From contig JAHIRD010000082.1 in assembly GCA_018818835.1 (NCBI GenBank), positions 1-64,000 of the forward strand: DNA of 64,000 nt, read 5' to 3'. The first letter of the stretch is position 1. Each line of letters opens with the position of its first letter. A program made the position numbers and the translations under genes. The DNA is from Pseudomonadota bacterium (GTDB taxonomy: Bacteria; Desulfobacterota; Desulfobacteria; Desulfobacterales; Desulfolunaceae). The notes beneath the pieces are model-generated. The model ran no database searches. It was not told the origin of the DNA and saw only the letters and a program-made list of their open reading frames with translations. Shown piece after piece: positions 16,635 through 43,835 of this stretch.

Positions 16635-16638
16635 GGTA

Positions 16639-17397: not shown

Positions 17398-17533
17398 GGG
17401 CTACACTCCAATATGAATAGGGTTATGCCTCCGGCGGCCCTGCCGGAGGCAAAAAAACTGAAAGATCGTGAAAGAGGACCACGAATCCGTGGCCCTCCGA
17501 CCGTCCACACACAGGCACAACATGGATGACGGT
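17398..17533. repeat. Short palindromic repeat between beta and chaperone genes
   Basis: The 136-bp spacer holds TGCCTCCGGCGGCCCTGCCG followed by GAGGCA (about 17428-17453), a perfect-stem hairpin of the same dispersed family as near 15549 and 12302. No T-tract follows it on the transcribed strand, so it is more likely an RNA-processing or repeat element than a terminator. Confidence 0.55.
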
Positions 17534-18718: not shown

Positions 18719-18758
18719 AACCATCTCCTTTATCTGTTAAGTAAACGATCGATGTGGA

Positions 18759-19427: not shown

Positions 19428-19468
19428 CTGTTACCTCGCTATAGATGCGTTCATGTTCGTTACCTGTC

Positions 19469-22444: not shown

Positions 22445-22509
22445 GTTTTCCTCTCTTTTCAATGCTTAACGTTATTAACAAATTGCCCGCTTAAGTCTTT
22501 ACTGCTATT

Positions 22510-23142: not shown

Positions 23143-23163
23143 GGGTCCTCTTTCACCTGAATG

Positions 23164-23448: not shown

Positions 23449-23449
23449 C

Positions 23450-26934: not shown

Positions 26935-28446
26935 ATGATTTCACGATCGGAACTGAATGTACTGATGGATAGAGAACCAAAGTTTGATGATATCATGATC
27001 AGCTTTCGGGCCATCGCAAAACAACCTAAGGGGATTAACAAAGAACTCAAACAGGTGATTGCCATCGCCAGAAAATTCAATGAAGAAGTGATCCGTCCCG
27101 GAAGTCTGGCCCTGGACCGAAAAATGCACGAGACACCGGACCACCTTGCTTGGGACTATGTTAGGGAGGCGAACAAACGGGGGTTTTACACCATGTTTAT
27201 TCCCAAAATGTTCGGAGGCGAAGGTTACAGCCTTACCGCTGTTGCCTATTTTCTTGAAGAGCTGTCATCCTCCTGCGGAGCTGTGGCCAATATTGTGGGG
27301 GTGCATTATCTGGGCATCGTCATGATGTTTTCATCATGGAACTTAAAGATATGCAATCGAATCTGTGCGGACGTGATCAAAGGCCAAAAAAACGGGGAAC
27401 CCTGTCTTCTCAGCCTGGCCATGACCGAACCCGACGCCGGCACCGACTCCCAGAATGTTGAATTCATGGATACCGGAAGTCTGGCCTGCCATGCCCAAAA
27501 GGTCAAGGGAGGCTACAAGGTCACGGGCAACAAAATTTTCATTTCCATGGGCCATATGTCAACCTGGCATATTGTCCACGCCTACACCGATTTAAAAAGA
27601 GGCTCGGACAACACAGTGATGCTGGCCGTCAAAAAAGGAACCCAGGGGTTTTCATTTGGAAAGAAAGAAAAAAAAATGGGTCAAAAGGCCTGCCCTGCCA
27701 GTGAGCTGATCTTCAAAGACTGCGTCATACCCGACGAAAACGTATGCTTTAGTAAAGAAGATATGGCCAAATTGAAGCGCCGGGTCAAAGACACCAATGC
27801 CCAGGTTTTCGCATACATCTGGGCTGCATCCCGAACCAGCGTGGGTGCCTTTGGTGTGGGTACTGCCCGGGCCGCCTTTGAAGAAGCTTTAGATTACGCC
27901 ACGAAAACCATGATCGACGGTCAACGGCTTGTCGATCACGAATGGTGCCAAAGCCTTCTGGGGGATATGTATAAAAATGTTCTCCTGTCTCGCCTGGCCT
28001 ATACCGAAGCAGGCTATGCCAACGGATTGCACGGCATCTGGATGGTCATGAACGTAAAACCCATGTATTTAATGAACAGGTATTTGCCCAAGGCACTGAT
28101 AAGCTGGTTTATGAAACCCTTTCTCAATCTTGGCCTGACCACGACTGTTTTCCGCAAAATTTGTTTTGATATGCAGAGTGATGATGCTGTCAATCGCGTG
28201 GATGGCTGGGGATCGTTCGCCAAGGTCGTGGGTACTGACGCAGGTATTCAGAATGCCCGGCTTGCCATGGAAATCATGGGCCATGCCGGTGTGCGACAGG
28301 ACCGGCGTGTGGAAAAAATTCTCCGTGATTCCAAGTTATTCCAGATTTATGAAGGCACCAATGAGATAAACCGGCTGAATCTGTTCAAACGGCTGGTGGC
28401 AAAAGCGCTGCCACAGACCGAGGTTTTTTCGGAAACCAACCCATGA
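26935..28446 (+). CDS. Acyl-CoA dehydrogenase (catalytic partner of a tandem pair)
   Basis: A 503-residue flavoprotein with all acyl-CoA dehydrogenase landmarks: 'MTEPDAGTDSQNVEF' (first signature), 'GNKIFISMGHMSTWHIV' for FAD binding, 'GFSFGKKEKKMGQKACPASELIF', and IYEGTNEINR with the catalytic base Glu473. It is about 100 residues longer than a standard dehydrogenase because of an insert around 330-400 (WMVMNVKPMYLMNRYLP) and an N-terminal extension. It introduces a 2,3-double bond into an acyl-CoA in the cytoplasm, passing electrons to ETF. It is followed 36 bp later by a second, non-canonical dehydrogenase. Confidence 0.92.
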   Translation: MISRSELNVLMDREPKFDDIMISFRAIAKQPKGINKELKQVIAIARKFNEEVIRPGSLALDRKMHETPDHLAWDYVREANKRGFYTMFIPKMFGGEGYSLTAVAYFLEELSSSCGAVANIVGVHYLGIVMMFSSWNLKICNRICADVIKGQKNGEPCLLSLAMTEPDAGTDSQNVEFMDTGSLACHAQKVKGGYKVTGNKIFISMGHMSTWHIVHAYTDLKRGSDNTVMLAVKKGTQGFSFGKKEKKMGQKACPASELIFKDCVIPDENVCFSKEDMAKLKRRVKDTNAQVFAYIWAASRTSVGAFGVGTARAAFEEALDYATKTMIDGQRLVDHEWCQSLLGDMYKNVLLSRLAYTEAGYANGLHGIWMVMNVKPMYLMNRYLPKALISWFMKPFLNLGLTTTVFRKICFDMQSDDAVNRVDGWGSFAKVVGTDAGIQNARLAMEIMGHAGVRQDRRVEKILRDSKLFQIYEGTNEINRLNLFKRLVAKALPQTEVFSETNP

Positions 28447-28482
28447 TAAACACTTTATGATCTTTCAGGGGAGATGAATACC

Positions 28483-29604
28483 ATGACCGAATCTGCACAT
28501 AAAGAAATAAAAATGATAGAAAAAGCCGCACGGGAGTTCTCAAAGAAGGTGCTCGCACCGGAACGGGAGGAAAATGACGCCTTTCCCTTCGGGCCCTTTT
28601 TCAACACGGCACTTGAAAAAGCCTATGGGCTTGACTTTTTCCACCTGAACCTCCCCGAAAACTTAGGGGGCATGGGCCAAAGCATCCGGGCCTTGTGCAG
28701 GGTGATGGACCAGATCTGCCGGGAAGACAGCAGCCTGGGGGGAATCATTTTCACCAACACCCTGTCCCAATCCATCCTACTTGAGACGGGAAGTGAATCC
28801 CGACTCCAATCCCTGGCCGAAAAAGCCACCGGAGTCTTTGATTTTATCGTGGCCTTTCCATCCCTTACCAATCCCCATGACTTGACCGATCTGCCCAAAG
28901 CCCAAGTCAAAAACGATGTCTTTACACTGTCCGGGCACCTGGATTATCTGGTTCTCGGCGGCATGGCCAAACAGGCGATCATTCCGGCCTGCATCGATGG
29001 AAACAAAGAGTACTCTTTGTTTCTCGTTAATCTGGACAGCCCGGACGTGGTACGAAGCGAGCCCATCATGAGCCATGGGCTTCATGCCTGTCCTGCAGTG
29101 GATGTGACCTTTTCCTTTGCGGAAGGATTTCTTCTGGGCGAAGCGGGAAAGGGCGACGGCTATTTCACCAAGGCTTCGGAAACCATGCAACTCGCGGCCT
29201 CGGCCATGTTGCTGGGTGTGATGAAAGGATCCTGGGACGAGGCCATGTCCTATTGCGGGTCCCGTGTCCAGGGCGGCCGAAAACTCAAGGACTGGTCCAC
29301 CATGCAGATGAAGCTTGCGGACATGGTCATCCAGGTTCATGTGGCGGATATGCTGGTGGAAAGGGCCTGTCAAGCCGTGGAAAACCAGGAAAAAGACTGG
29401 CAGAATCTGGTCAAGGCCGCAGCCTTCCACATCCAGAGTGCAGCCACCCAGCTGGTTACCGAGGGTATCCAGGCTTTAGGCGGTGTGGGCTACATGAAAG
29501 ACTTCGGCCAGGAAAAACGATTCCGGGACGCCGGACAAATCCAAACCATGCTCGGTCACACCCATATCAAAAAACTGAGGTTCATTAAGCAGTTTCTCAA
29601 TTAA
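28483..29604 (+). CDS. Acyl-CoA dehydrogenase-like protein lacking the catalytic glutamate
   Basis: About 373 residues from ATG 28483; the ATG at 28474 abuts the GGGGAG site. The fold is that of an acyl-CoA dehydrogenase: an N-terminal helical domain (PENLGGMGQS), a reduced middle beta domain, and C-terminal 'EGIQALGGVGYMKDFGQEKRFRDAG'. The usual I-Y-E-G-T segment is replaced by QTMLGHTHIKK, so the C-terminal catalytic Glu is missing, and the first signature (MTEPDAGSD) is also absent. It is probably the non-catalytic half of a heteromeric enzyme with 26935, as in the alpha2-beta2 FadE pairs used for steroid side-chain degradation in actinobacteria (family knowledge). That comparison is by architecture only. 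Confidence 0.85.
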   Translation: MTESAHKEIKMIEKAAREFSKKVLAPEREENDAFPFGPFFNTALEKAYGLDFFHLNLPENLGGMGQSIRALCRVMDQICREDSSLGGIIFTNTLSQSILLETGSESRLQSLAEKATGVFDFIVAFPSLTNPHDLTDLPKAQVKNDVFTLSGHLDYLVLGGMAKQAIIPACIDGNKEYSLFLVNLDSPDVVRSEPIMSHGLHACPAVDVTFSFAEGFLLGEAGKGDGYFTKASETMQLAASAMLLGVMKGSWDEAMSYCGSRVQGGRKLKDWSTMQMKLADMVIQVHVADMLVERACQAVENQEKDWQNLVKAAAFHIQSAATQLVTEGIQALGGVGYMKDFGQEKRFRDAGQIQTMLGHTHIKKLRFIKQFLN

Positions 29605-29895: not shown

Positions 29896-32800
29896 ATGAA
29901 AAAATGCCTTTTGCCCCTCCTTGTGCTCTCTATTCTGTTTCTGTCAAACTGCAGGGGCAGTTCCACACCACCCTGTTCAAAACCAACGCCGACTCAATGT
30001 CTTGACGATTCATACTGCACGGATTGCGAACAACGGGGTGTCGATATCGAAACGATTTGTGCACCTGTGTTACAAGCTCATTTCAACGCAAGCAAAAGGG
30101 AGCTTGCTCTTGTTCCCGAACTGTCCGGTTCCGAGGAGACCCTGAGGGATAGGTATAATGTATCTTATGCTGATCAACCCTATCTGTTTATGCCTGTTTC
30201 CGTTACGCCTGCAACCTATTACATGCGAAACGCCAAATTCAATCTCATCACAATCAACGATAAGCTTCTTGCAACCACAACATTGCACCCCCTTTTGCCT
30301 GAGCTTGAATTCAATCCGGCCACCATACCGTCGGGTTTATCCATACCCACATCCAAGGGCGTTTCAAAATTAGCTCAGCTGCCCTTTCCCATCACCCAGG
30401 ACCAGACAGACTTCACGTTCCAAGGCATGAGTTACACCATGGATATGCTCCAAAGTTACTATGATAACCTGTACACCGGCAAGGTCGCTGCCTGGAATGA
30501 AAACGGAGATAAGGTCGAATCCTGTGAAGAATACGCCTATGAAAAATTCTATGATTTTTCATTGTTCAAGGATTTCATGGCCCTCCATGAAGATGAGCCC
30601 TTACGGGTTGTGGAATATGCCTACAGGGGATCTGCCCTGGATCAAAACGGCATTTATATCACGGATGACAACCAGGACGATCCCGGCGCCATCGGCACCC
30701 AATGCATGACGCATTTGGCATCAAGCCTGAATGGTGGAACCGGCTATGATTTCATGAAACGGCGAGGCGGTGACCCCCAGTCCATATTCACGGAAATGGC
30801 CATCTATTACAATAAGTTTGTTCAAGGAGTGGACCCCAATGCCCTCCACGGAATTTCACATTTCGAACAAAGGCCTTCACCGAACATAAGCACTGACATT
30901 TTTTCGGATCTTATATTTTCAAAAAATCTGCCCACGATGTCCTGTGTGGGAGGGCTTGACCATTGCGTCATCACGGAAAACAGAAATTTTATGCCTAAAA
31001 ACTTTTTTGTGGAAGTGCTTGGCCATATCAGCAAAACAAACACGGACCGGACCAAGGGCATCGTCTTGACCGATACCGGTTTATTGGACCTCATCGGCAC
31101 ACCCGAGATGAGCTATGCCATGGATTGCTACAACAACAATTTCGAATTTCATTTTCTCATGCTTAAATCAGCCCAACGATTATATTCCACGAGCACAGCT
31201 CTGAAAAACAAACTCCTGGAATTCAAACTCCTCAGAAAACACCTGATCCAGCTGATGGCCGAACGGACCCGCTACGAGAACTTTTCGATTATCTTACAGT
31301 CCAGGCCCACACAAAGAATTCTGAACAATTCCGAAACCCTTCCCCCTTCGGAAAAAGACTACGCAGCCATGAAAGTTGATGAGTACATCACCACTCCGGC
31401 TGCATCCAAATCACAGGCCGGGTCAAAAGCCATTGGGATTGATGATTTCGATATTATTGATATCATTGATGATATTATCCCCATCACAAGCATTTTAAAG
31501 AACATTGACGATCAGATCCAGGCGGTCCTGATCGATGCCCGGGAAAAAGGATGTCTTGACCTGGACATTTCAGCGGCCGATCTTGATTTCGGCTCTGCAC
31601 AAGATGGTCAAATTACGCACAATTATGCGACATTAAACACATTTTCCTACCCCAACTCTTACACCGATGAAACCATCGACTTTCTATACGACAAAGCCCT
31701 GTGTGACTGGATACCGGAGATGTTGACCGAAACTGTCATCACCCTGATCCCGGATGTCTATTACGAAAATGTGTATGCAGACTGTATGCGGATCACCGGC
31801 GGTGATTTTCAGACCATGGACGTGGATAATTTCAGGTTCCGGTTTCCCTCACAGTGCGGGCCCCTCTTCCTCTTCAATATTTTTAATCCCAACACATTCA
31901 ACGATTACACGGAAAACACTTTGACCTTCCACCAATTCGAAAGCCTCATCAAAAAATATCCCGAGGCCATTCTGGATTGTGATGATATTATCCAGGCCAA
32001 AGCCAAAAAGGCACTGGCCGACGCGGATATGAACTATTACGACCCTGTCACCGGACGGGTTATGATGAGCAAGTCACGATCCTATTACGACAGTATCGGG
32101 GGTCAGTATGCCAACCTTGAATTCGGTTACGCCATGGGCTGGCTTTACGAGGGGTACGACGACATTGCAGCCATTACGACCCTGGATATTGCCAACAGGG
32201 ATTTTGTCTGTGAAAAAACAGGGTTCTTTGCCTTTGGGAACTATTTTGCAGGGGGCTCATACCTGGGGCATGATTTCACCCTCTGCTCGGCAGGGTCCTA
32301 TTCAAGCAACAAGACATCCGGAGCATCACGGCCTGTTCCCCCGACCCTTGCCGACTCGAAGATCGAAGATAAAATCAACAGCGATATCAATGCTGTGGCC
32401 GCGGAAACAGAGGTTTCCACAACCTATTTCATGTTCATTAAAAACGAAAAGATGACCTTCACCTATGAAAACGACCAACTCGTCCAGACGCCCTATAAAA
32501 CAACCCACAGCCAGCCGTTTTCAGGAGACACAGGAGACTACCAGAGCCCTGACCCTGAAGTCCAGATGCTTTACCTGGATGCAGAGAAAACCATTCCCAT
32601 CTGCGGTTTCATTTCCATCAGGGTTCGGGGATCGGTCACCGGGGATATTGATGCGGACACGATTGTCAACACGGATAAACAGACGCTGTATGTGAATGAT
32701 GGATGTAAAACCATGAATTTTGCTTTCACGCCCTACATGGACTTTGACGCATTTGCCCAGGCCAGCATAACAGCGGGCATTTCAGGAGTTGCAAGCATCA

Positions 32801-33165
32801 GTGCCGGAGTGGACATAGGCCTTAAATTCATCGGCATTAGCTTCCCCTATTCCACACAGCTTTCCATCACCCAGGGGAACGGCACAGCCGATGACAGGCC
32901 CTTTAACTATGATATTTTCGTAAATGTTTACAACAACCTGGACCAGAACCTCACCCTATTGTCAGGATATTTTGGTGCCTTTGTCAAAGTCGAGTATCTC
33001 TTTGGTTCCGATACTTACCGGCAGACCTTGTTTTCCTGGGATGGAATCAAATTCGGGGGGAATGTGGACCGGGTGGGCCAGAACATCGATGACGTGATCA
33101 CGCCCTTGGCTGTTCCGGTGAAGGCCCTCTACGGATTGTCGGAGAGTCTTTATGACGAGTATTGA
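29896..33165 (+). CDS. Very large lipoprotein of unknown function
   Basis: A 1089-residue protein with a lipoprotein signal (MKKCLLPLLVLSILFLSNC, lipobox LSNC at about 16-19) followed by a Cys-rich segment (CSKP...CLDD..CTDC..C). The body is rich in Tyr, Asp and Asn with scattered Cys and no low-complexity linkers. A mid-region is strongly acidic (IDDFDIIDIIDDIIPI, about 515-530). The last ~230 residues look like beta-rich structure with a 'QASITAGISGVASISAGVDIG' strand pair. I recognise no family or catalytic motif. It is monocistronic, with short repeats on both sides. An outer-membrane or surface location is likely from the lipobox. Confidence 0.75.
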   Translation: MKKCLLPLLVLSILFLSNCRGSSTPPCSKPTPTQCLDDSYCTDCEQRGVDIETICAPVLQAHFNASKRELALVPELSGSEETLRDRYNVSYADQPYLFMPVSVTPATYYMRNAKFNLITINDKLLATTTLHPLLPELEFNPATIPSGLSIPTSKGVSKLAQLPFPITQDQTDFTFQGMSYTMDMLQSYYDNLYTGKVAAWNENGDKVESCEEYAYEKFYDFSLFKDFMALHEDEPLRVVEYAYRGSALDQNGIYITDDNQDDPGAIGTQCMTHLASSLNGGTGYDFMKRRGGDPQSIFTEMAIYYNKFVQGVDPNALHGISHFEQRPSPNISTDIFSDLIFSKNLPTMSCVGGLDHCVITENRNFMPKNFFVEVLGHISKTNTDRTKGIVLTDTGLLDLIGTPEMSYAMDCYNNNFEFHFLMLKSAQRLYSTSTALKNKLLEFKLLRKHLIQLMAERTRYENFSIILQSRPTQRILNNSETLPPSEKDYAAMKVDEYITTPAASKSQAGSKAIGIDDFDIIDIIDDIIPITSILKNIDDQIQAVLIDAREKGCLDLDISAADLDFGSAQDGQITHNYATLNTFSYPNSYTDETIDFLYDKALCDWIPEMLTETVITLIPDVYYENVYADCMRITGGDFQTMDVDNFRFRFPSQCGPLFLFNIFNPNTFNDYTENTLTFHQFESLIKKYPEAILDCDDIIQAKAKKALADADMNYYDPVTGRVMMSKSRSYYDSIGGQYANLEFGYAMGWLYEGYDDIAAITTLDIANRDFVCEKTGFFAFGNYFAGGSYLGHDFTLCSAGSYSSNKTSGASRPVPPTLADSKIEDKINSDINAVAAETEVSTTYFMFIKNEKMTFTYENDQLVQTPYKTTHSQPFSGDTGDYQSPDPEVQMLYLDAEKTIPICGFISIRVRGSVTGDIDADTIVNTDKQTLYVNDGCKTMNFAFTPYMDFDAFAQASITAGISGVASISAGVDIGLKFIGISFPYSTQLSITQGNGTADDRPFNYDIFVNVYNNLDQNLTLLSGYFGAFVKVEYLFGSDTYRQTLFSWDGIKFGGNVDRVGQNIDDVITPLAVPVKALYGLSESLYDEY

Positions 33166-33661
33166 AAAAGTCTGATCCGGCTTATATGCATTTGATGGGA
33201 TAATCGAAATTGAACTCGAAACTGTGAAAGAAGACTTCGCGGTCTATGGATTTAAGCGAGTCAATTTCGATTTCGATAGCGATCCCGAAGGAACGTAACC
33301 CAACAAACCGATGCACTGGACGCTCATTCTTCACGCCAGTGTTCCTATACCCTTGCCATACACCCATTCCGGTTTTCTGGTCAAATTCAAGCGTGTGGAA
33401 TCGCCCATTAATTTGTTTGATTTTTTTAACATTTGTATATAAACCCTTAGGCCTGTGTGCTGATACCTAATCTTCCCGGATGCACAAATTCAAAACAAGC
33501 TTAGAATGAAAAATAACGGCATGATATTTGCTATTCATGAAAAGCATTCATGTATCAGCACAACGATCTTCATTGCTTTAAAGAAGGTCTATAGAGTGAT
33601 TCAATATTTTAAAAAACAATCAACAGAATAATGTATAATATAGCCATAAAGAGGCCGCAAA
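33166..33661. other. Intergenic region before the sulfotransferase-like gene
   Basis: No supported gene. The stretch 33200-33370 carries repeated AATTTCGATTTCGATAGCGA-type sequence that also yields a 61-codon minus frame, which I take as a dispersed non-coding repeat. The last ~150 bp are very AT-rich and probably contain the promoter of the following gene set; AGAGG precedes the ATG at 33662. Confidence 0.5.
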
Positions 33662-34405
33662 ATGACGATAAAAATAATCGGTGCAGGATATGGACGAACA
33701 GGCACCATGTCAACACAGGTGGCCCTGAACAACCTGGGATTTCCCTGTTATCATATGGTCGAAGTTATCAAGAATAAAGCCAATAGAAAACATGTTGATT
33801 TCTGGTTGAATGTATCGCGATCAAATAAAGGAACACAGCATGACTGGCAGGATGTATTTGCCAACTATAGCGCCACCATAGATAATCCCGGCGCCTGTGT
33901 ATGGCAGGAATTGATGGAAGCCTACCCCGAGGCTAAGATCCTTTTGACACTCCATCCCAAAGGCGCTGATGCCTGGTACGAAAGCACCATGGATACCATT
34001 TATTTTTCCGAAAACAAATGGCAGTTCAAAGTACTTGCATTTTTTTCACCCTTTGCCCGGAGGCTTGGAGAAATTACCCACCGATTAGTCTGGCAGCGCA
34101 ACCATAAGGGGACGATGAAAAATCGCGATTTGGCCATTGAAGACTATCACAATCATATTGAGGAAATAAAGTCCAAGGTCACACCGGAAAAGCTGTTAAT
34201 CTTTTCTGCTGATCAGGGCTGGGGCCCTCTCTGCACGTTCCTGGGTGTTGACGTTCCGGCAACGGATTTCCCCAATGAAAATGATCGGAGTCAAATCAAA
34301 AGAATGAACACAGGCATGATAATTGCTGCATATCTTATACTTATCACAGGTGTTGCTGGCATTGTCTCTTTGGCCGGTTCAGTTGGTTTGTTTTTGGGAC
34401 AGTGA
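33662..34405 (+). CDS. Sulfotransferase-family protein with C-terminal membrane helix
   Basis: A 247-residue protein. IIGAGYGRTGTMSTQVALN (5-23) is the PAPS 5'-phosphosulfate loop form found in the Sulfotransfer_4 family, followed by 'LGFPCYHMVEV', 'PEAKILLTLHPKGADAWYES' (the 3'-phosphate loop region, with His-Pro where Arg-Asp is common) and 'LLIFSADQGWGPLCTFLG'. The last ~25 residues are a hydrophobic helix (MIIAAYLILITGVAGIVSLAG), so the enzyme would be membrane-anchored by its C-terminus. Family members transfer sulfuryl groups, but many remain uncharacterised. It is the first gene of a plus-strand set leading to a KAS III-like enzyme. Confidence 0.8.
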   Translation: MTIKIIGAGYGRTGTMSTQVALNNLGFPCYHMVEVIKNKANRKHVDFWLNVSRSNKGTQHDWQDVFANYSATIDNPGACVWQELMEAYPEAKILLTLHPKGADAWYESTMDTIYFSENKWQFKVLAFFSPFARRLGEITHRLVWQRNHKGTMKNRDLAIEDYHNHIEEIKSKVTPEKLLIFSADQGWGPLCTFLGVDVPATDFPNENDRSQIKRMNTGMIIAAYLILITGVAGIVSLAGSVGLFLGQ

Positions 34406-34594
34406 TATCAGTGAAATAGGCCTCTAAACAGGTTTACTGCAAGCCCATATGTCTCGATACACATGAGACACGCGAGACAGTTTGTATATCACTTTGTCAT
34501 TTAAAGACTATAAATATTCTAAGCAGGCTTGAAATTGATCCTGCATTATTCTTTTCCTCAAGGTAAAAATTTATTTTAAAACAATGGAGGACAT

Positions 34595-35239
34595 GTGACA
34601 AAAAATTACGATATATCGACCATTCCTGGTCTTATTCGAACAGAAAATGTTGAGTTGGACGAAATGCAGGAAATGTGCATGGAAATGACACATGCGGTTT
34701 ATCCCCATGATAAAATTTATGGCCAATTTTGTTCCATAGAGGAATATATCGACTGCCCACCTGAAGTCGTCTTCGACTATCTTGCTGATACAAAAAATCT
34801 TGGAGAATGGACTTACAGCACAAGGGATATGAAAAAAACTGATTGCCACAATACCATGGTCTTTAATGACGCCATTGGCGGTATCACGGACTGTTACTGT
34901 AAAACAATCGCAAACAAAGACGCCATGACCGTGGACTATCATTGCGCCTGGGACCAGGGCGATCACCTGTGGATGATCTATCTGATACGCGTCATCCCGG
35001 CCCAGCTGGTATTCAACAAACCCGGGTCTGTGGTGCTATGGACAAATTGCCACCATCCTTTTTATGACCATAACCCCTTTCCTGAAAAAGCCCCGAAAGA
35101 ACGTGAGGGCTGGGTGGGTGATGCCTGGAATATGTTCTATGCCGGACATACCATTGAAATGCAGAATTTGAAAAAAATACTTGAGTTCAGATATAAACGG
35201 GATATTTGCGAATTGCAGGGAAAGAAGGCAAAATCATGA
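34595..35239 (+). CDS. SRPBCC/START-like ligand-binding protein
   Basis: A 214-residue protein starting at GTG 34595 (GGAGG upstream; the overlapping ATG leads straight to a stop). The 'IEEYIDCPPEVVFDYLADTKNLGEWT' segment is the classic opening strand and helix of the SRPBCC fold, with following strands (TMVFNDAIGGITDC, MTVDYHCAWDQGDHLW) and the C-terminal helix 'EMQNLKKILEFRYKR'. Proteins of this fold bind or cyclise hydrophobic intermediates, for example polyketide cyclases. Its stop overlaps the start of the KAS III-like gene by four bases (ATGA), which implies coordinate function. An N-terminal His- and Cys-bearing stretch could bind metal, but this is not certain. Confidence 0.72.
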   Translation: MTKNYDISTIPGLIRTENVELDEMQEMCMEMTHAVYPHDKIYGQFCSIEEYIDCPPEVVFDYLADTKNLGEWTYSTRDMKKTDCHNTMVFNDAIGGITDCYCKTIANKDAMTVDYHCAWDQGDHLWMIYLIRVIPAQLVFNKPGSVVLWTNCHHPFYDHNPFPEKAPKEREGWVGDAWNMFYAGHTIEMQNLKKILEFRYKRDICELQGKKAKS

Positions 35240-36255
35240 AACCTGTCAGCCTTATTTCTGTTGCAAGCTATCTTCCTGAAAAAATAGTTGATAATGATTT
35301 TTTTAAAAATGAATCGGGCCTTAAAACCCATTCGATGTTTCGTGGTACGAAACTAAGGCATCATATCGGTGAGAATGAAACCTGTACCGATATGGCGACG
35401 ATTGCCTTAACCCGTCTTGCTGAAAAAATAAACATCAATCTGCAACATGACGTGGACATCCTTATGACCAATGTCACCATACCGGATATCCCCTTTGTGG
35501 GTCCTGGCGCCTCCATTGTGGGGGCATTAAAACTGAAGCCCAAATATGTTTATGACCTTCAAAACGGAGGGTGTGTTTCCTTTATATTTATGATGGAGCT
35601 TGCCCGGGCCATCATCAACAGCACGGATGCCAAAAACGCTGTGATTTGCAATTTTCAAACAGCAGCAGGACGAATTCTCGCTCTTCCGGATAACCGTAAA
35701 TTGCCCCAGTCTGCCATACCGGGTGACGGTTGCGGTGTGGCTTTTCTTGCGGCCGATGACAGCTCCCCCATTGAGGCGATTGTCACACGAACCCATGGTG
35801 AATATGCCAATGATATGCGCCCCATTGCTCCTGACGGCCGAAAATGGTGGGAGCCGGGAGTCACTGCATTTAACATTGATTTCAATAAGTCACGGCTTGC
35901 TGCCATTGTAGGCCGAGGCAATAAACTGGTTCCGGAAGTATTAAACCAGGCCATGACCATGGCCAATGTCACACATAAAGACATTGGCGCGTTGGTGACC
36001 AATCAACCCAACAAGTTTTTTTTACGAAACTGGCGGGAATCCGTACTTATCCCGGAAGAAAAACAGGTCCATACCTTTGATGAACATGGAAACCTCTTTG
36101 GCGCGGCAATCCCCATATGCTTTGAACGTGGTATTGATACGGGGGTCATAAAACCGGGAGAAAAAATTCTTCTCGGCGGTTTTTCCCATGCCGGTGATTA
36201 TACGGCATCAGCGGTGATACATTGGCAGAAAAAAGCAAGGCCATCACCCGCGTGA
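35236..36255 (+). CDS. KAS III-like thiolase-fold enzyme with atypical active site
   Basis: A 339-residue protein from ATG 35236, overlapping the upstream gene. It has the ketoacyl-ACP synthase III fold: 'SVASYLPEKIVDND', 'TNVTIPDIPFVGPGASIVG', the nucleophile Cys113 in LQNGGCVSF, 'GDGCGVAFLAADD', and 'DEHGNLFGAAIPI' with Asn286. At the position of the catalytic His (usually HQAN) it has NQPN, so His is replaced by Asn256. Cys and Asn of the triad remain, so acyl transfer is possible while decarboxylative condensation should be impaired. KAS III-like acyltransferases and pathway-specific synthases of secondary metabolism show such changes. It is followed 28 bp later by a ThDP enzyme. Confidence 0.85.
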   Translation: MKPVSLISVASYLPEKIVDNDFFKNESGLKTHSMFRGTKLRHHIGENETCTDMATIALTRLAEKININLQHDVDILMTNVTIPDIPFVGPGASIVGALKLKPKYVYDLQNGGCVSFIFMMELARAIINSTDAKNAVICNFQTAAGRILALPDNRKLPQSAIPGDGCGVAFLAADDSSPIEAIVTRTHGEYANDMRPIAPDGRKWWEPGVTAFNIDFNKSRLAAIVGRGNKLVPEVLNQAMTMANVTHKDIGALVTNQPNKFFLRNWRESVLIPEEKQVHTFDEHGNLFGAAIPICFERGIDTGVIKPGEKILLGGFSHAGDYTASAVIHWQKKARPSPA

Positions 36256-36283
36256 TCTAACCATAAAACATATTCGGAGAATC

Positions 36284-38047
36284 ATGGTGTACGATAAAAC
36301 ATATTCTGATACACAAGCAGATCCTGATTTATATTCCGATCAAATACTGACCCTACCCATGGCTGACGCCCTGGCCGAGGTTCTCCGGGATTTGGGCGTT
36401 GAGCATCTCTTTGGTGTGAGCGGTGCCAATATCGAGACCCTGCACGACGCGGTATTTCGATTGGGGACCGGAAAACTAACAAATCGTCTTTGCAAATCCG
36501 AGGTCGGCGCTGCGTTTATGGCTGATGGGTACAGCCGGTTTAAAGGCACAATGGGCGTATGCTGTTCCACGTCAGGTGGCGGTATGATGAACCTGGCCGT
36601 GGGGGTCGCAGAATCCCGTGCGTCCGGAACCCCACTTCTTTCTATTGTCGGATGTCCTCCAACGCATCTTGCCGGGCAGGGTGCGTTCCAGGATGCCTCG
36701 GGCAATGGTCTGACCGTGGATGCAAAGATGTTATGGCAGGCCATCAGTAAATGCGTTATCGAGATGGATGCCCGCCATTTCTGGGAACAGCTGTTTCAGG
36801 CCCTGACAGAAGCTGTAAGCCCTAAACCCGGACCTTCAACGCTTTTGATTCCAAGTGACATCATGGGACAACACGTTTTACAAAGACCGAAATGGTGGCC
36901 AACGACATTGTCGGAATTCAAAACCAACCCCGAACTACCTGAAAAAGAGTTATCCTTTCTTGTTTCAAGTATTAACAATGCCCGATCGGTTGTTATTATC
37001 GCAGGCCCCGATATCAGAAACACTCAGGAGCTGGTAGAATTTTCCAATGCCACGGGTATCCCTGTGGCAACAACATTGGGCGCAACGGGAGCCTTCCCCA
37101 ATAATCACCCCCATTTCATAGGCACGGTAGGGGCTGCCGGATTGCCATCGGCCCACGACTATTTATCCGATTGCGATCTCATGATCGTTTTGGGCAGTCA
37201 ACTCGAAGCAATGACACGAGCCCCTTTTGAAAAAACCCTCGAATCGAAGAATGTTTATATCATCAATACCTGCACCGGTTTAACCCCAAAACGACTGGGT
37301 ATAAAAAAAATCACCGCCTGCCCTGATAAGGCCGTAAGCTATCTTAACGAAACCAAAGCCCCGGTGATCAAAACATTTAATCCCAAAAAGTTCACCGAGC
37401 ACAGATACTACATACCGCTGACCTATGACGAGCCCAAGGCCGCTGAACCCAGTAAGGAAGACCGAGGCTTAAGACAAAGCGAGGCTCTTTTCATCCTTCA
37501 GACCTATCTTCCCCAAAATGGCATTCTCTTGTTTGACGCCGGGAACTGTGCAGCAGCGGCGGCCCACTATCTGACCATCCCTGAGGGGACCCGATCTTTG
37601 ACCGGATTGGGCATGGCCGGCATGGGATATGGCTTGTGTGCGGCCATGGGTGCACAACTGGCAAGGCCTGAAAAACAAGCCATGGTGATAAGCGGTGATG
37701 GTGCTTTTTTAATGACAGGCATGGAGATTCATTCAGCCATTGAATGGCAGCTCCCTATTCTCTGGGTATTTTTCAATAACAGCCAGCATGGGATGTGTAC
37801 ATCACGGCAACGGCACTTTTTTAACAATCGACTGACATGTGCAAAGTATGGTGACGTGGATATCGACCGTGTCGTATCGGGTCTTGATAGTTCAAATACC
37901 TTATGGCATGGCCAGGCAAACGATTCAAAAGAAATGAAACGTCTTCTTGACGACTACTTTTCCAAGGGTTCAAGGCCAGGGGTCCTTGAATTAAAGATCG
38001 GCATTGAAGAAATACCACCGTTTTTTCCTTTAGCAATAGAGACATAG
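36284..38047 (+). CDS. Thiamine diphosphate-dependent enzyme, acetolactate synthase-like
   Basis: A 587-residue protein with the three-domain layout of acetolactate synthase/benzoylformate decarboxylase. The N-terminal PYR domain has the activating Glu73 (CKSEVGAAFMADGYSR), the central domain has 'VVIIAGPDIRNTQELVEF', and the C-terminal PP domain has GDGAFLMTGMEIHSAIEWQL followed by FFNNSQHG (about 471-499), the Mg-ThDP motif. Enzymes of this group decarboxylate 2-oxo acids and either release an aldehyde or ligate it to another carbonyl. In this gene set it could supply or elongate an acyl unit together with the KAS III-like enzyme. No FAD-binding RhoA-like signature of true acetolactate synthase is obvious, so I do not call it IlvB. 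Confidence 0.88.
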   Translation: MVYDKTYSDTQADPDLYSDQILTLPMADALAEVLRDLGVEHLFGVSGANIETLHDAVFRLGTGKLTNRLCKSEVGAAFMADGYSRFKGTMGVCCSTSGGGMMNLAVGVAESRASGTPLLSIVGCPPTHLAGQGAFQDASGNGLTVDAKMLWQAISKCVIEMDARHFWEQLFQALTEAVSPKPGPSTLLIPSDIMGQHVLQRPKWWPTTLSEFKTNPELPEKELSFLVSSINNARSVVIIAGPDIRNTQELVEFSNATGIPVATTLGATGAFPNNHPHFIGTVGAAGLPSAHDYLSDCDLMIVLGSQLEAMTRAPFEKTLESKNVYIINTCTGLTPKRLGIKKITACPDKAVSYLNETKAPVIKTFNPKKFTEHRYYIPLTYDEPKAAEPSKEDRGLRQSEALFILQTYLPQNGILLFDAGNCAAAAAHYLTIPEGTRSLTGLGMAGMGYGLCAAMGAQLARPEKQAMVISGDGAFLMTGMEIHSAIEWQLPILWVFFNNSQHGMCTSRQRHFFNNRLTCAKYGDVDIDRVVSGLDSSNTLWHGQANDSKEMKRLLDDYFSKGSRPGVLELKIGIEEIPPFFPLAIET

Positions 38048-38268
38048 GTTTACATCTTTGATTCATTTGGGATTCGGGTGAAAACATTTTCATCCTTACT
38101 AAATAAAACAACACCATAAGTAGGAGGCACAAAAAAACATATTATCTCGATTCAACAATATAAGAGGCGATATAACTGAATCGAGAATGTGTACATAAAT
38201 CAGGGGGCGGGGAAATTTTTCTAATTTGGGGAATAATTTTCTAATTCTTTTTTAATGGAGATGCGTCT
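38048..38268. promoter_or_regulatory. Inter-operon spacer with an inverted repeat
   Basis: Between the ThDP enzyme and radical SAM genes. TCTCGATTCA (38145-38154) and TGAATCGAGA (38177-38186) form a perfect 10-bp inverted repeat with a 22-base spacer and no T-tract, so it looks more like a regulator binding site or RNA stem than a terminator. A Shine-Dalgarno-like TAGGAGG (38121-38127) has no start codon after it. GGAGATG precedes the ATG at 38269. Confidence 0.45.
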
Positions 38269-39765
38269 ATGAAACGAATACTTCTGGTTTATGCCGTGAG
38301 CCATGCCATTCAGAATCCTTTAGGCGGTGTCGCCCCTCCTTCGGGGCTTACATGGATTCAGAAAGCCCTTCATGTAAACGGATTTGATTATCACACCTGT
38401 GATCTTTCCCTGGCCAAAGACAGATGGGATATCGAAAAAATTATCAAACAATCTGTGACTTCTTATCAACCCCATGCGGTGGGGGTCTCAATTAGAAATA
38501 TTGATACCTCTGTCAATCCACCACGAACCTTTTTCCCATTTTTAAAAGATGTTGCCCAGACAATTCGGCGTGAGACACATGTCCCTATGATTTTAGGGGG
38601 GCCAGGATTTTCACTCTATTCCAAAAAATGCATGGAAACCATGGCGGCCGACTATGGCATCGTGGGAGAAGGAGAAGCATCGTTTCCTGCATTGTTAAAC
38701 TCTATTTTTTCTAAGGTCGAGTCAGCCCCATCTGTCCCCGGTCTCATTGTAAAAAAGAACGGGTCGTTTCATGAAATTCCCAGGGAAATTTTTTCAGGCT
38801 ACACAACCTTCGGGAAAGCACGGCATGCGGGGATTGACTATGATGCCTATGACAAGATCGGCGGCTATTATCCCATTCAGACCAAGAGAGGATGCGCGTT
38901 CAACTGCATCTATTGTGACTACCCCTATCTTGAAGGTAGGCAGTATCGCTTGAGGCAACCCTCGGTGATCGTGGATGAGATCGAAGATCTCTCAAAAACC
39001 TCTGCCTTGAATCACTTTTTCTTTACAGACAGTGTGTTTAACTTCCCAACGGAATTTTGCCAAAGCATTCTTGATCAGATCATAAAAAGAAAATTGAACA
39101 TCGACTGGACAGCCTATGTAAACCCCAAAGGTATGACACCTGATCTTATCGAACGATTTAAAAAATCAGGCTGTTCACGACTTGAGGTAACCATAGACAC
39201 GCTGACTCGCCCCACCCTTAAGTCTTATCAAAAAAATTTCAATCAGGGCGAAATTTTCAATGCCGACAGCTTTTTCAAACAGTTTGACATTCCAACCTAT
39301 TACTGGATCAACCTGGGCGGTCCTGGTGAAACAAAAGAGACCTTTGTAAGAAACCTGGAGCACCTCGACCGATTGACTCATGTGACCAAGGGATGGGTTG
39401 GCGTCGGCTTTGTGGTCCTGCCGGGAAGTCCCCTTTATGATTTGGCTGTTCAGGAAGGTCGTATTGAAAGGAATGGGATAATAGAACCGTATTTATATAT
39501 CAGCAACCATTTACCAAATAACTATTCTGAGCAAATCCAAATGTTTGCCATCGACCATCCGGAATGGTTTTCCGTTTTTGATATGCTTGACATTGATTAC
39601 CGCCAGATGGCCATGAAAATCATTAATGAAAAAATAAGAGACCACTGGCCCATGCAGATGGCCTATGGCATGAAACGAAAAGAAAAATACCTTCAGGGAG
39701 ATCTCCCAATTATGTCCCACCAGATGTATCAGGACCGATTGGAGGCCAAGCAAAGAAAAAATTAA
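38269..39765 (+). CDS. B12-binding-domain radical SAM protein
   Basis: A 498-residue class B-type radical SAM protein. Residues about 1-170 form a cobalamin-binding-like Rossmann domain (ILLVYAVSH..., 'HAVGVSIRNID', 'MILGGPGFSLYSKKCMETM', 'GIVGEGEASFPALL'). The radical SAM core carries Cys209-x3-Cys213-x2-Cys216 (GCAFNCIYCDYP), then 'HFFFTDSVFNFP' and 'INLGGPGETKETF'. The C-terminal part (400-498) is helical. Such enzymes methylate unactivated carbons or phosphinates, rearrange carbon skeletons, or modify lipids. The cobalamin His motif (DxHxxG) is not apparent, so B12 may not be bound through it. It is probably part of the same biosynthetic set as the upstream genes. Confidence 0.88.
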   Translation: MKRILLVYAVSHAIQNPLGGVAPPSGLTWIQKALHVNGFDYHTCDLSLAKDRWDIEKIIKQSVTSYQPHAVGVSIRNIDTSVNPPRTFFPFLKDVAQTIRRETHVPMILGGPGFSLYSKKCMETMAADYGIVGEGEASFPALLNSIFSKVESAPSVPGLIVKKNGSFHEIPREIFSGYTTFGKARHAGIDYDAYDKIGGYYPIQTKRGCAFNCIYCDYPYLEGRQYRLRQPSVIVDEIEDLSKTSALNHFFFTDSVFNFPTEFCQSILDQIIKRKLNIDWTAYVNPKGMTPDLIERFKKSGCSRLEVTIDTLTRPTLKSYQKNFNQGEIFNADSFFKQFDIPTYYWINLGGPGETKETFVRNLEHLDRLTHVTKGWVGVGFVVLPGSPLYDLAVQEGRIERNGIIEPYLYISNHLPNNYSEQIQMFAIDHPEWFSVFDMLDIDYRQMAMKIINEKIRDHWPMQMAYGMKRKEKYLQGDLPIMSHQMYQDRLEAKQRKN

Positions 39766-40083
39766 TAATTTCGCTTTAATTCACTATGAAGGTTTCAGTT
39801 TCACAGTCTCAATCGTACTTGCCCACAGAAAATCCTTCATAAGTCTCATAGGTCTCATAGGTCTCATAGGTCCCATAAGTCCCATAAGACCTATGGGACC
39901 TATAGAGTCCCCTCGGAGGCCGTGCCCATGTTTCATTGTTTTCACCCTGGGTGTGTCTTTGCGCGCTGTTGCTTTTCTTCGTGCCTATTCGTGTTCTTCA
40001 GCGACCACCGGGAGCGGGTGGTTAAAAAAACTACAACGAGGCCTTCCATGTGACTGAAATATTTCAAATAAATCACAAAATGG
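39766..40083. other. Convergent spacer with tandem and palindromic repeats
   Basis: Between convergent genes. At about 39837-39907 there is a run of 10-bp units (AGTCTCATAGGTCTCATAGG and variants), followed by its own complement (GACCTATGGGACCTATAGAG), giving a hairpin. At about 39976-40022 lies a copy of the TTCTTCAGCGACCACCGGGA dispersed repeat. No gene is visible. The hairpin may end transcription from both sides. Confidence 0.6.
39837..39910. repeat. 10-bp tandem repeat ending in a palindrome
   Basis: Units of AGGTCTCATA and its variants (AAGTCTCATA, AGGTCCCATA, AAGTCCCATA) are repeated about five to six times. They end in AAGACCTATGGGACCTATAG, complementary to the repeat units. It has no spacer-repeat structure and is not CRISPR. 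Confidence 0.7.
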
Positions 40084-41436
40084 CTAAGTTGTCGAATTAA
40101 GCAGCTCAGCAAGAGTACAGTCCAAAGACTGCACCAAATCCTTTATTTCATCCAAGGAATACTCAGCTTCCGGATAGGTGATATTTGTGCTGATGCGACC
40201 ATCCAAACTTGTAATGGCAACAAACATATGGTTGATAGTTGCTGAATCGACAAACTCGCTGACCTGGGCATGTGGTCCATGGGAATTGAACCTGTCCAAA
40301 CTTCCACCCGTGGACACAAAACATGTCCCATTGATCATTCTCAATTTATTTTTTTTGGCTTTTTTTATTAAATAACTTAAAATTCTTTTCCCCAAAAAAA
40401 CAGGGGGCACTATTTCAATGAGATAATAAAAAAGCATCTCTTTATTTTTATATCTATTCACGTTTCTTCGTAACTGTTTATTTATCTCATCAACCAAACG
40501 TCCAATATTATCCCAATATCTCATATGAATATTAATTTTACTAAACAACGCATAATTTCCGAACAATGGGGACTTTTGAAAAAAAGAACGCGTGTCAATG
40601 GTATGATATATGGCGATGGTATTTCCTTTTTGTTTTTCTTTCTGTCTTCGGCTAAATACATGAGTAAGAGCAACCAGTATAAGTACCGTAAGACTACAAC
40701 CCAAATCCTTTGATGTTCTTTTAACCGTATCGACATCAAAGGGCAGGACATGGTTATGAAGATTAACCTTACTGTATTTTTGTGATGGCCTTAAGGACGA
40801 ATGAACCACTGAATAATGTTTCTTTTCAGATGTGATGGACCGGTATACCTTGAACGACTTATAGAGTTGGATAGGAATCCTGTAAAAAGGCGTCTCCAGA
40901 ATAGCAGGCCAAAGGCTTGGGTTGTCAATTTTCAAAGATATTGGATTATGTCCATTCAAGTATGCCATGAATGTATCAATGACCTTATGAAACGACAGGC
41001 CATCGCAGGTCATATGATGAATGGTGATTAATAAAACAGGTTTGTCATTATCAGGAATAAACGCAATGCGAATGGGCAGTTTTTCTTGCAAAAGAAAGGG
41101 TCTGTTCAAAAATTCCCTGCGGAATTCAAAATAGTCCGAGGTATTGTATATTAAATCATGATGAACCGTGAATGCTTCATCAAAAAGGCGTTCTATGTCT
41201 TCACCCGTATTATTGAGAATTTTAATTTTGTAAGAGAAGACCTTTGAAACAACACGAGAACGAAGCCTGGGGAATAAGGCCAACATATGGCGCATACCCT
41301 CCCGGATTTTTTCAATACCATGGGTTTGGGAAAATTGCAAAGTAACCAACATTCCCATTGAAGGGAATACGTCTTCCGAGGCGAAAAACACAAAATCAGA
41401 CGGATTCAAGGATATAAGATTCGTTTGATTGCACAT
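40084..41436 (-). CDS. HHxxxDG acyltransferase / condensation-domain protein
   Basis: A 450-residue stand-alone protein with the active-site motif HHMTCDG (residues about 140-146), preceded by 'LPIRIAFIPDNDKPVLLIT'. This is the hallmark of the chloramphenicol acetyltransferase-like superfamily that includes NRPS condensation domains, PapA-type acyltransferases and wax ester/diacylglycerol synthases. The second half ('VNLHNHVLPFDVDTVKRTSKDLGCSLTVLILVAL', 'IDTRSFF', 'NYALFSKINI') fits the latch/floor-loop half. No carrier-protein domain is attached. It likely esterifies or amidates a hydroxyl or amino group with an acyl-thioester, in keeping with a role as the finishing step of the adjacent biosynthetic genes. 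It is convergent to them, so co-regulation is not shown. Confidence 0.82.
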   Translation of the reverse strand: MCNQTNLISLNPSDFVFFASEDVFPSMGMLVTLQFSQTHGIEKIREGMRHMLALFPRLRSRVVSKVFSYKIKILNNTGEDIERLFDEAFTVHHDLIYNTSDYFEFRREFLNRPFLLQEKLPIRIAFIPDNDKPVLLITIHHMTCDGLSFHKVIDTFMAYLNGHNPISLKIDNPSLWPAILETPFYRIPIQLYKSFKVYRSITSEKKHYSVVHSSLRPSQKYSKVNLHNHVLPFDVDTVKRTSKDLGCSLTVLILVALTHVFSRRQKEKQKGNTIAIYHTIDTRSFFQKSPLFGNYALFSKINIHMRYWDNIGRLVDEINKQLRRNVNRYKNKEMLFYYLIEIVPPVFLGKRILSYLIKKAKKNKLRMINGTCFVSTGGSLDRFNSHGPHAQVSEFVDSATINHMFVAITSLDGRISTNITYPEAEYSLDEIKDLVQSLDCTLAELLNSTT

Positions 41437-41591
41437 ATATTATCCCGTGAGTTCATAAAATTAATCCATTATTTCACCATGGCGGCTTCTTATTTCAATG
41501 ATTTTGAGATGATCAGTCACACATGTTGAATACAGTCATTTTGATGTGAGCTATAAAGTTGCACAGGATATCAAATGAGTCAAGATCCAAT

Positions 41592-41640
41592 AAAAAAAGG
41601 CCCTGCCTCCCGTTGAAGAAATCAACCAAAGGCAGGGCCC
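41592..41640 (-). terminator. Intrinsic terminator of the acetyl-CoA hydrolase/transferase gene
   Basis: On the minus strand a 10-bp GC-rich stem (GGCCCTGCCT pairing with AGGCAGGGCC, 41599-41608 with 41630-41639) is followed by a run of seven T. It lies 36 bp after the stop codon of the gene at 41676. This is the clearest rho-independent terminator in the window. Confidence 0.9.
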
Positions 41641-41675
41641 ATATCCAAAAAAACCGGAATCTTCTCAGGAGGGAA

Positions 41676-43835
41676 TCAGATGGCTCCGGATGACTGTAAG
41701 GCAAACACAACAACCTTACGCATCATTTTTTCCTTGATGGATGTGGGGACATCAAGATCCAGTCTTTCAAGATAAGGGGTGGCCGATTGGGGGGATTTTC
41801 TGCCCAATTCTTTTAACAGGCCTTTTATTGTTGACAGTTTGTTTTGGGAAAGTGATGCTTTGAATGTTTTCAACGCTTTGCCAATGACCAGTTCCTGATC
41901 CGTAAATTCGGTGCCAAAGGGAAAGGGTTTGAAAAATCCTTCCTTTCTGAACGGAGCGATTATCTCCCCAATCCGCTCTGGGGTATTATTCCTGAATAAA
42001 GCTGGAATTTCATAGGTCATGGGGATCTTGCCTGCTTTTTTCGCTTTTGCCAGAAGGTCACTCTGGAACCGTGAATCGGTGATATTGAGGATGGATGCAA
42101 TCACGTCCTTGTCTGATTTTCCCATAAGATCAGCTATCCCGTATTCCGTGACCACAATATCCCTCAAATGGCGAGGGATCGTGGTATGGCCGTAATTAAA
42201 CACGACATTCGACAGAGTTTGAGCACCTTTTTGCCGGGTGCTCCGAATCATCATGATCAGACGGGCATCCGGAAGCGCATGGGCCATGGACACAAAGTTA
42301 TACTGTCCCCCTACCCCTGAGATCACGGTGCCGTTCTCCAATCCATCCGAACAGACATTGCCGAGAATGGACAGAATCATTCCTGCGTTGACAAACCGGG
42401 CATCCTTCCGTTGAAGTGTTCTCAAAACTTCATCGCCATACAGTTGATTGACCTTGCCCACGCCGGTCATTTCGAACTGACTTCGTTCGTCATCATCCAT
42501 ATCCCTGAGTTCATTATAGAATTCATTGGACCCGATAAAAAATCCACCGTGGAGGAGAACCCCGTTTTTCAGACGATCCCCCCGGCATTGCTCAGCAACA
42601 ACCCTTCGGTTTTCCGGCTGCCTGAAATCAGTTGTCCATGATGCTGTGCCGTTTATAATGCGGTAATCCTTGTATGACAGATCACCACGAAATATTCCGT
42701 ATTTCTGAAGTATATCAAATCCGGATTCTGTCATCACAGGGCTGAAGGGGTCTTCTTTGAGCAAAGACTCCACGGAATCGGCGGTAAGAGTGCCAGATAG
42801 CATTCCTGAATTCACATGTTTCTGGATGGTTGCATTGTCGTACACTTTTCGTTTGATAATACCTTGCTTATAAAGTGTGATAAAAACCTCCACCAGCATT
42901 TCAGTGGCCCCGTAAAGCCCCTTGGCTAAAGGGTCTCTGCCACCTATGGTGCGGATAAGATCCCCAAAGTGATCATCCATTACCGAATCGTGAAGAAATC
43001 GTTTATACTCATCGTTTTGCATGTGCCGCATTGCCAGGCCGTTTGCAATGGCATCCCCAAGGTTGCCAATGCCGATCTGAAGGGTGCCTCCGTCTTTTAT
43101 AAGAGAACTGACATAAAGACCGATCATATGGTCCTGGTTGCTCAGGGCGGATTTGGGCACGCTGAAAAGGGGAGAATGATAGGTCTCAGCTTCAAGAATC
43201 ATGTGGTATCTGTCTTTTTTGTTCACAGCATCCCCGAACATAAACGGAAGGTATTTGTTCACATGGCCCACGTGAACCACGGGTATTCCCTTTGCTTCCA
43301 TTTCCGCCATACGGTCCACCAAATCACCGATATCCGCATTGCAGCTGTCACTGTATACATATTCTCCGTTTATTTTTTTCTTGGCAACGCTATGGCAGTA
43401 GACATTGATGCCGCCTCCGATCATATCACGAACCACATGGGTATAGTTTGAGCTGACATATTCCTGCTGGGCATGGGGCACATGAATGTACCCCCCAGCC
43501 TTGCAAAAAAACTCACGCACCGTGACATTGGTCGGCAGAGCATTGTTTCTCAGATCATCCATATAGTCCAGATCAGGAACCCCTTCCCAGATCCTATGCA
43601 CTATGGGCTCCATCATTCGCCGTTCAAGGTCACTGGACCAGCCCGGTTTTTCAAGGGCAAGGGCGCTGGCCAGGGTCAGGGTGATCGTAGGATCTTCTTT
43701 GGCACGGCGGTAGAGTTCGTTGACAATGGGATAGGATTTCCCCAGAGCCAGAGGCATTCCCAAAACAATGGTTTTACCCACACGGCGGATAATGTCATCC
43801 ACACATATGGCAACGTCGGTATACATAAGAGGCAT
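41676..43835 (-). CDS. Acetyl-CoA hydrolase/transferase family protein
   Basis: A 719-residue protein from ATG 43835 (AAAGGA upstream; the frame extends 18 codons further without a better site). The C-terminal half has the family's core: 'SGVGGQYNFVSMAHALPDARLIMMIRSTR', 'TTIPRHLRDIVVTEYGIADLMGKSDKD' and the 'GLYGATEMLVEVFITLYKQGI' region with the likely CoA-linked Glu. It is longer than the ~430-residue acetate CoA-transferases and matches the ~700-residue bacterial group. It moves CoA between acyl groups or hydrolyses acetyl-CoA, useful for acetate or fermentation products. It is monocistronic, with its own terminator. Confidence 0.87.
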   Translation of the reverse strand: MPLMYTDVAICVDDIIRRVGKTIVLGMPLALGKSYPIVNELYRRAKEDPTITLTLASALALEKPGWSSDLERRMMEPIVHRIWEGVPDLDYMDDLRNNALPTNVTVREFFCKAGGYIHVPHAQQEYVSSNYTHVVRDMIGGGINVYCHSVAKKKINGEYVYSDSCNADIGDLVDRMAEMEAKGIPVVHVGHVNKYLPFMFGDAVNKKDRYHMILEAETYHSPLFSVPKSALSNQDHMIGLYVSSLIKDGGTLQIGIGNLGDAIANGLAMRHMQNDEYKRFLHDSVMDDHFGDLIRTIGGRDPLAKGLYGATEMLVEVFITLYKQGIIKRKVYDNATIQKHVNSGMLSGTLTADSVESLLKEDPFSPVMTESGFDILQKYGIFRGDLSYKDYRIINGTASWTTDFRQPENRRVVAEQCRGDRLKNGVLLHGGFFIGSNEFYNELRDMDDDERSQFEMTGVGKVNQLYGDEVLRTLQRKDARFVNAGMILSILGNVCSDGLENGTVISGVGGQYNFVSMAHALPDARLIMMIRSTRQKGAQTLSNVVFNYGHTTIPRHLRDIVVTEYGIADLMGKSDKDVIASILNITDSRFQSDLLAKAKKAGKIPMTYEIPALFRNNTPERIGEIIAPFRKEGFFKPFPFGTEFTDQELVIGKALKTFKASLSQNKLSTIKGLLKELGRKSPQSATPYLERLDLDVPTSIKEKMMRKVVVFALQSSGAI

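Follow-up and report, generated by a model that had tools for sequence, protein, structure and literature searches.

The closest described relatives of the locus analysed here are the gene sets CqsB1-B2-B3 and NzsJ-I-H, which form the core of the carquinostatin and neocarazostatin pathways. According to PMC7466098, the thiamine diphosphate (ThDP)-dependent enzyme CqsB3/NzsH couples indole-3-pyruvate and pyruvate, and CqsB2/NzsI is a cofactor-free enzyme that closes ring A, by a proposed chemistry in which the indole ring is the nucleophile; the resulting catechol then oxidises spontaneously to the ortho-quinone. The same source treats these carbazoles as actinomycete products and mentions homologues of the trio in one myxobacterium and one cyanobacterium, while PMC10100901 describes the same trio in the chlocarbazomycin cluster of Streptomyces. 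We analysed a 64,000-nucleotide stretch of contig JAHIRD010000082.1, referred to as the window, which holds linked genes for an SRPBCC protein, a KAS III-like condensing enzyme and a ThDP-dependent carboligase (Table 1). The initial annotation regarded this cluster as undescribed, a view to be refuted by any described cluster that holds this trio; cqs and nzs are such clusters, and the trio, judged by its sequence, is of a known kind that matches the Streptomyces carbazole-forming set. What is new here is a distinct subtype of the trio and its presumed sulfate-reducing host.

The identity of the trio is best seen in its SRPBCC protein. Its sole match in the PDB, up to an E-value of 5, was 6ipv (E 1.2e-49), the carbazole synthase CqsB2 of Streptomyces exfoliatus, to which it is 44% identical; 6ipv was also the top Foldseek match of its AlphaFold model (E 9.8e-12), although the model is weak, with a predicted local distance difference test score (pLDDT) of 55. 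In an alignment of 13 rows, made of CqsB2 and the proteins of 12 loci, residues Y144, Y172, H206 and E209 (CqsB2 numbering) are invariant, and four of the five proposed catalytic residues are kept. The catalytic Glu of the ThDP enzyme (Glu73 in the window) and its GDG...NN motif are retained in all 11 aligned rows, and the window's KAS III-like protein keeps the Cys and Asn found in the Cqs/Nzs core. The window's ThDP enzyme is 42% identical to that of an Embleya cluster, and its closest solved relative is BbmA, on which the papers listed included none of relevance. The family names given in the initial annotation agree with Pfam and NCBIfam, though two Pfam matches lie below gathering, namely SRPBCC (17.9 vs 27.4 bits) and Condensation (27.3 vs 30.6 bits). 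The NCBIfam model ScyC, from scytonemin biosynthesis, shows a faint likeness to the SRPBCC protein (30.5 bits, cut-off 400); the scytonemin pathway is not known to include a KAS III.

The loci compared were the window, L007, L008, L020-L025, L060, L061 and L062. The 11 loci other than the window belong to Mycobacteriales, Legionellales, one Embleya and a second dsrA-bearing genome (G087, locus L007, record JAHIVH010000081.1); at least two phyla are represented among the 12. KAS III and ThDP genes accompany the SRPBCC gene in every locus; the KAS III gene lies 5 kb away in L024 and is broken over two frames in L020, and the ThDP gene of L061 is truncated by the contig end. The order SRPBCC-KAS III-ThDP is identical in the window, L007, L060 and L061, and L007 also has the sulfotransferase gene in the same place as the window. 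The conserved co-occurrence of the three genes, for which the initial annotation had proposed a search, is borne out in 11 further loci. The six-gene arrangement that it described, five genes on the plus strand and one convergent, was confirmed, including a 4-bp overlap of the SRPBCC and KAS III genes and a gap of 28 bp before the ThDP gene. The remaining gaps are large, with 189 bp after the sulfotransferase gene, 221 bp after the ThDP gene and 318 bp after the radical SAM gene, and the tight unit thus comprises the trio only. For the KAS III gene we took the ATG at 35236 as the start, while the mechanical list of open reading frames (ORFs) begins it at a TTG, 35206.

Table 1. Genes of the cluster and their positions in the window.
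Gene product	Position	Strand	Remarks
3'-phosphoadenosine-5'-phosphosulfate (PAPS)-type sulfotransferase (PF17784)	33662..34405	+	247 aa
SRPBCC cyclase, CqsB2/NzsI (carbazole synthase) family	34595..35239	+	GTG start
KAS III-like condensing enzyme, CqsB1/NzsJ position	35236..36255	+	PF08541/PF08545; PDB FabH matches
ThDP-dependent carboligase, CqsB3/NzsH position	36284..38047	+	TPP_enzyme N, M and C
B12-binding radical SAM protein, probable methylase, accessory	38269..39765	+	TIGR04072 and PDB 6wte matches
Condensation-like (HHxxxDG) acyltransferase candidate, accessory	40084..41436	-	Sub-threshold Condensation match

The window's trio differs from the Cqs/Nzs core at two positions of functional interest. 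Its KAS III triad is Cys113-Asn256-Asn286 in place of the Cys-His-Asn of the Cqs/Nzs trio, and its SRPBCC protein has Asp92 at the position of CqsB2 Glu105. Because the triad is Cys-Asn-Asn, the trio is filed as a variant subtype, here called Asn-type, and not as a plain Cqs/Nzs member. Among the 11 whole KAS III proteins of the trios, the His column holds Asn in eight and His in three, with no change in the nucleophilic Cys or the second Asn, and the broken gene of L020 likewise shows Asn. His was taken as the Cqs kind with the Embleya protein as a stand-in (the Embleya SRPBCC protein is 85% identical to CqsB2), CqsB1 itself not having been compared. The E105 column holds Asp in nine and Glu in four of the 13 rows. 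Cyclase Asp and KAS III Asn coincide in 9/9 loci, and Glu and His in 3/3; the chance of this coincidence over 12 loci is 1 in 220, a figure that ignores kinship, and on the trees the match is close to one evolutionary split. The other columns that separate the groups flank Tyr144, with R143 changed to Ile and Y/F145 to Leu. The Asn/His split has a support of 100 in the cyclase tree, and in the KAS III tree the His group is supported at 100, and the Asn group stands apart from the His group together with a FabH-like outgroup with a support of 96. The ThDP tree contradicts the split with a support of 100, joining Mycobacteriales Asn-type with Legionellales His-type proteins, and places the window's proteins beside those of Embleya and L060 with a weak support of 58-63; this conflict suggests that ThDP genes have been exchanged between clusters of the two groups. 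One Asn-type cluster, L060 (3201-10573), is fuller than that of the window, with a Legionella_OMP gene adjoining and genes for an O-methyltransferase, an ELFV amino-acid dehydrogenase and a P450 flanking the trio.

Of 389 genomes of the class searched with the window's SRPBCC protein, two gave a match, the host (G000) and G087, and 387 gave none. A profile made from nine SRPBCC proteins matched 1 of 247 genomes in a sample of the phylum (the host only) and 4 of 143 genomes from the order of the Tatlockia record (Legionellales, NCBI taxonomy). Six records in a collection of 72,556 plasmids carry the SRPBCC gene, and the same six carry a matching KAS III gene. A plasmid-labelled Tsukamurella record, NZ_LR134449.1 (L021), bears fabG1, inhA and ferrochelatase genes and may be a piece of chromosome. 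The SRPBCC gene had no match in viral contigs or phages, and a phage or viral origin was rejected. A recent transfer between the host and G087 was also considered and found no support, the cluster genes being 73-82% identical between the two, DsrA 72.7% and the product of the adjoining gene, presumably DsrB, 81.7%. The open-licence literature yielded no paper on carbazole or acyloin genes in Desulfobacter or anaerobes and, among the matches listed, no title on the trio in Legionella, Tsukamurella, Desulfobacter or Nocardia/Rhodococcus.

Unlike the Cqs/Nzs core, the window adds a sulfotransferase and its host carries dsrA. The sulfotransferase scored 203 bits with PF17784 (gathering 22.8), has the P-loop GRTGT near its N terminus, aligned with that of solved members, and by eye shows a hydrophobic C-terminal stretch. 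Its best solved relatives are SgdX2 (8y9p, E 2.1e-37) and 9kf1 (E 2.2e-36); SgdX2, which belongs to the pathway of the polycyclic aromatic sungeidine, is of the same family and has the P-loop in common, with 131.9 bits over residues 3-230. An orthologue, 78.5% identical, occupies the same position in L007, and among 40 relatives the gene was found in two, the host and G087, both of which bear the trio. The dsrA match was above the cut-off in these two genomes and in none of 14 control genomes, for which reason we call both presumed sulfate reducers; the host may belong to Desulfobacterota. A match to adenosine-5'-phosphosulfate (APS) kinase was likewise above the cut-off in both but also in 11 of the 14 controls, and shows only that PAPS is plausible. 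The sulfotransferase gene lies upstream of the trio in both dsrA-bearing genomes that have one; we take the trio plus the sulfotransferase as the unit.

Taken together, the cluster probably encodes a carbazole-type assembly line of the Asn-type subtype. What the sequences show is homology, synteny and the kept and changed residues; its substrates, product, activity and sulfation are inferred. The KAS III-like enzyme would load an acyl group from acyl carrier protein (ACP) or coenzyme A onto Cys113 and then condense it with a beta-keto acid, with loss of CO2, and the SRPBCC protein would close and aromatise ring A to give a 1-alkyl-2-methyl-hydroxycarbazole. The sulfotransferase would sulfate a ring hydroxyl or make a sulfate leaving group, and the radical SAM and condensation-like proteins may methylate and acylate the product, being dispensable for the core. 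The outline of the initial annotation, in which an acyl group, a ThDP enzyme and an SRPBCC protein act together, agrees with the characterised relatives as described in PMC7466098; its aldehyde unit does not, two alpha-keto acids (indole-3-pyruvate and pyruvate) being expected, and the expected product class is a fused aromatic alkaloid. As for keto-acid supply, other Asn-type trios have an aminotransferase gene adjoining the KAS III gene (L023, L024) or an amino-acid dehydrogenase gene upstream (L060).

Several observations weigh against this assignment. The 40 ORFs of the window scanned with Pfam include no aminotransferase or ACP, which is a further difference from the Cqs/Nzs core, and indole-3-pyruvate is consequently adopted from the relatives. 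The ThDP enzyme is 30-42% identical to those of the other trios outside L007, too distant for its substrate to be fixed; the AlphaFold model obtained for the SRPBCC protein is weak; and the change from His to Asn in KAS III may weaken decarboxylation, so that this step may differ. The sulfotransferase, which the initial annotation counted as a member, is linked to the trio in G087, but no relative was found in the examined flanks of the other 10 trio loci.

The same trio chemistry could act on phenylpyruvate or 4-hydroxyphenylpyruvate and give a naphthalene- or other arene-type product instead of a carbazole. ThDP enzymes of this sort vary in their keto acid, as seen with scytonemin ScyA, which also couples two keto acids (PMC9822442); the weak ScyC match of the SRPBCC protein points the same way, and the enzymes for keto-acid supply encoded beside further Asn-type trios belong to generic families. 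We nevertheless consider such a product unlikely, given that the indole is the nucleophile in the CqsB2 chemistry proposed in PMC7466098, that four of the five residues are kept across the whole SRPBCC alignment, and that a TrpB-like gene lies near the L021 trio and trpB about 10 kb from the L024 SRPBCC gene. That an ordinary KAS III gene and an acetolactate-synthase-like gene adjoin by chance is scarcely conceivable: both families are common, and the ThDP protein has matches on four other contigs of the genome, but the trio is linked in 12/12 loci over at least two phyla, two of its genes overlap by 4 bp, and its SRPBCC protein is without a match in nearly all genomes of the class. Chance neighbourhood is refuted by this synteny.

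The initial annotation had instead proposed a single six-gene pathway to a lipid- or polyketide-like product, in which methylation by the radical SAM enzyme and acylation by the HHxxxDG protein are obligatory. In its favour, orthologues of the radical SAM, sulfotransferase and condensation-like genes (at least 73% identical) occur, among the 40 relatives, only in the host and G087, a co-occurrence with a chance of 1 in 780 if kinship is ignored. The gene at 29896-33165, our single control, is shared by the host and its family-mate G035 and not by G087, which shows that genes of this neighbourhood are not as a rule shared with G087. Against this pathway, the 82% identical radical SAM orthologue of G087 lies on another contig than the trio, and its condensation-like orthologue, 73% identical, lies about 120 kb from the trio. 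A third genome, G312, has a radical SAM orthologue yet no SRPBCC match, although it is 65% complete; there (L064 8971-11855, minus strand) a gap of 8 bp separates the radical SAM gene from a 34.5% identical relative of the condensation-like gene, on a contig with no match to a trio gene. The claim that both genes belong to the conserved unit also fails in the examined flanks of the 11 other trio loci, where neither is present. We therefore judge the six-gene pathway improbable. Since the two genes are unlinked in the second genome, they are probably not core to the trio, and we take them as a separate module that possibly acts on the same product.

Across the class, 28 of 378 genomes have a match to the radical SAM protein at E 1e-60 or better, with an identity of at least 72% in G000, G087 and G312 only and of 29-35% in the remainder. 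The protein shares the B12 domain and the CxxxCxxC radical SAM core with the TIGR04072 "ladderane" family and with 6wte, a tryptophan C2-methyltransferase that it matches in the PDB (E 2.4e-25). Membership of the ladderane family was rejected, as the score of 277 bits is below the cut-off of 360; other ladderane genes were not searched for. In the condensation-like protein the HHxxxDG motif noted in the initial annotation was confirmed as HHMTCDG (residues 140-146). The gene was found in 2 of the 40 relatives, and its profile matched the C domains of nonribosomal peptide synthetases (E 4.5e-5) and, weakly, dimycocerosyl transferase (E 0.027); its fold model is too poor for use (pLDDT 47).

Lipocarbazoles have been reported from Tsukamurella pseudospumae, according to a title in the reference list of PMC7466098, which gives them as 3-oxygenated, and their frame is the 1-alkyl-2-methylcarbazole (PMC11350554). 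In 2020, PMC7466098 described the machinery for mono-oxygenated carbazoles as still to be identified and considered that a hydride may attack C4 instead of water; it also gave E105 a possible part in removing the proton at C4. It is possible, though doubtful, that mono-oxygenated (3-hydroxy) 1-alkyl-2-methylcarbazoles such as lipocarbazoles are what the Asn-type trio builds, and that in sulfate reducers the sulfotransferase caps them. Asp in place of Glu105, together with R143I and Y/F145L, would then alter the C4 step, at which CqsB2 is thought to admit water; in sulfate reducers the free phenol would not be oxidised by air to a quinone, and the linked sulfotransferase would cap it as a sulfated lipocarbazole. 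Another Tsukamurella species (L021) does have an Asn-type trio, differing at E105, but the species are not the same and T. pseudospumae is tied to this trio by genus only. The window cluster also has no obvious reductase and no identified hydride donor, which, with the genus-only link, keeps the standing of this product low. If true, a sulfated lipocarbazole would be an alkaloid of the carbazole class from an anaerobe. The linked variant, with its rewritten KAS III triad and changed cyclase pocket, offers the mono-oxygenated branch a concrete candidate, and points to aromatic alkaloids that presumed sulfate-reducing bacteria make in the absence of oxygen.

In the non-coding sequence, Rfam gave no match within 33000-42000, promoter-like sites numbered 18 (shuffle mean 18.4) and terminator-like sites 14 (shuffle mean 9.2, sd 3.1). 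The interval that separates the radical SAM gene from the condensation-like gene holds, at 39837-39886, a tandem repeat of 9 bases (TCATAGGTC) in 5.6 copies, followed by a partly inverse sequence.

Upstream of the cluster, the acyl-CoA dehydrogenase genes at 26935-29604 were considered as part of the pathway and set aside, as the gene at 29896-33165 (plus strand) intervenes. The latter encodes a protein of 1089 aa with, by eye, a lipoprotein-like N terminus and no Pfam or NCBIfam match; it has a 44% identical paralogue in the host genome and a 61% identical relative in G035, and was found in 2 of the 40 relatives (the host and G035). At 12562-24028 (minus strand) lie genes for a molybdopterin oxidoreductase, an ethylbenzene-dehydrogenase-type (EB_dh) subunit, a 4Fe-4S subunit, a NarJ-like chaperone, cytochrome b, cytochrome c, MobA-like and Rieske proteins, and MoeA and MoaA-like genes stand elsewhere in the window. 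The gene at 61592-63004 (minus strand) encodes 471 aa, the N-terminal part of which has a match to the Hcp family of type VI secretion. The protein of 1739 aa encoded at 54263-59482 (plus strand) has kinase, AAA, GAF and SpoIIE phosphatase domains, and a 33% identical relative of it is found near the G087 trio (L036 2387-7555), about 9 kb upstream of the sulfotransferase gene.

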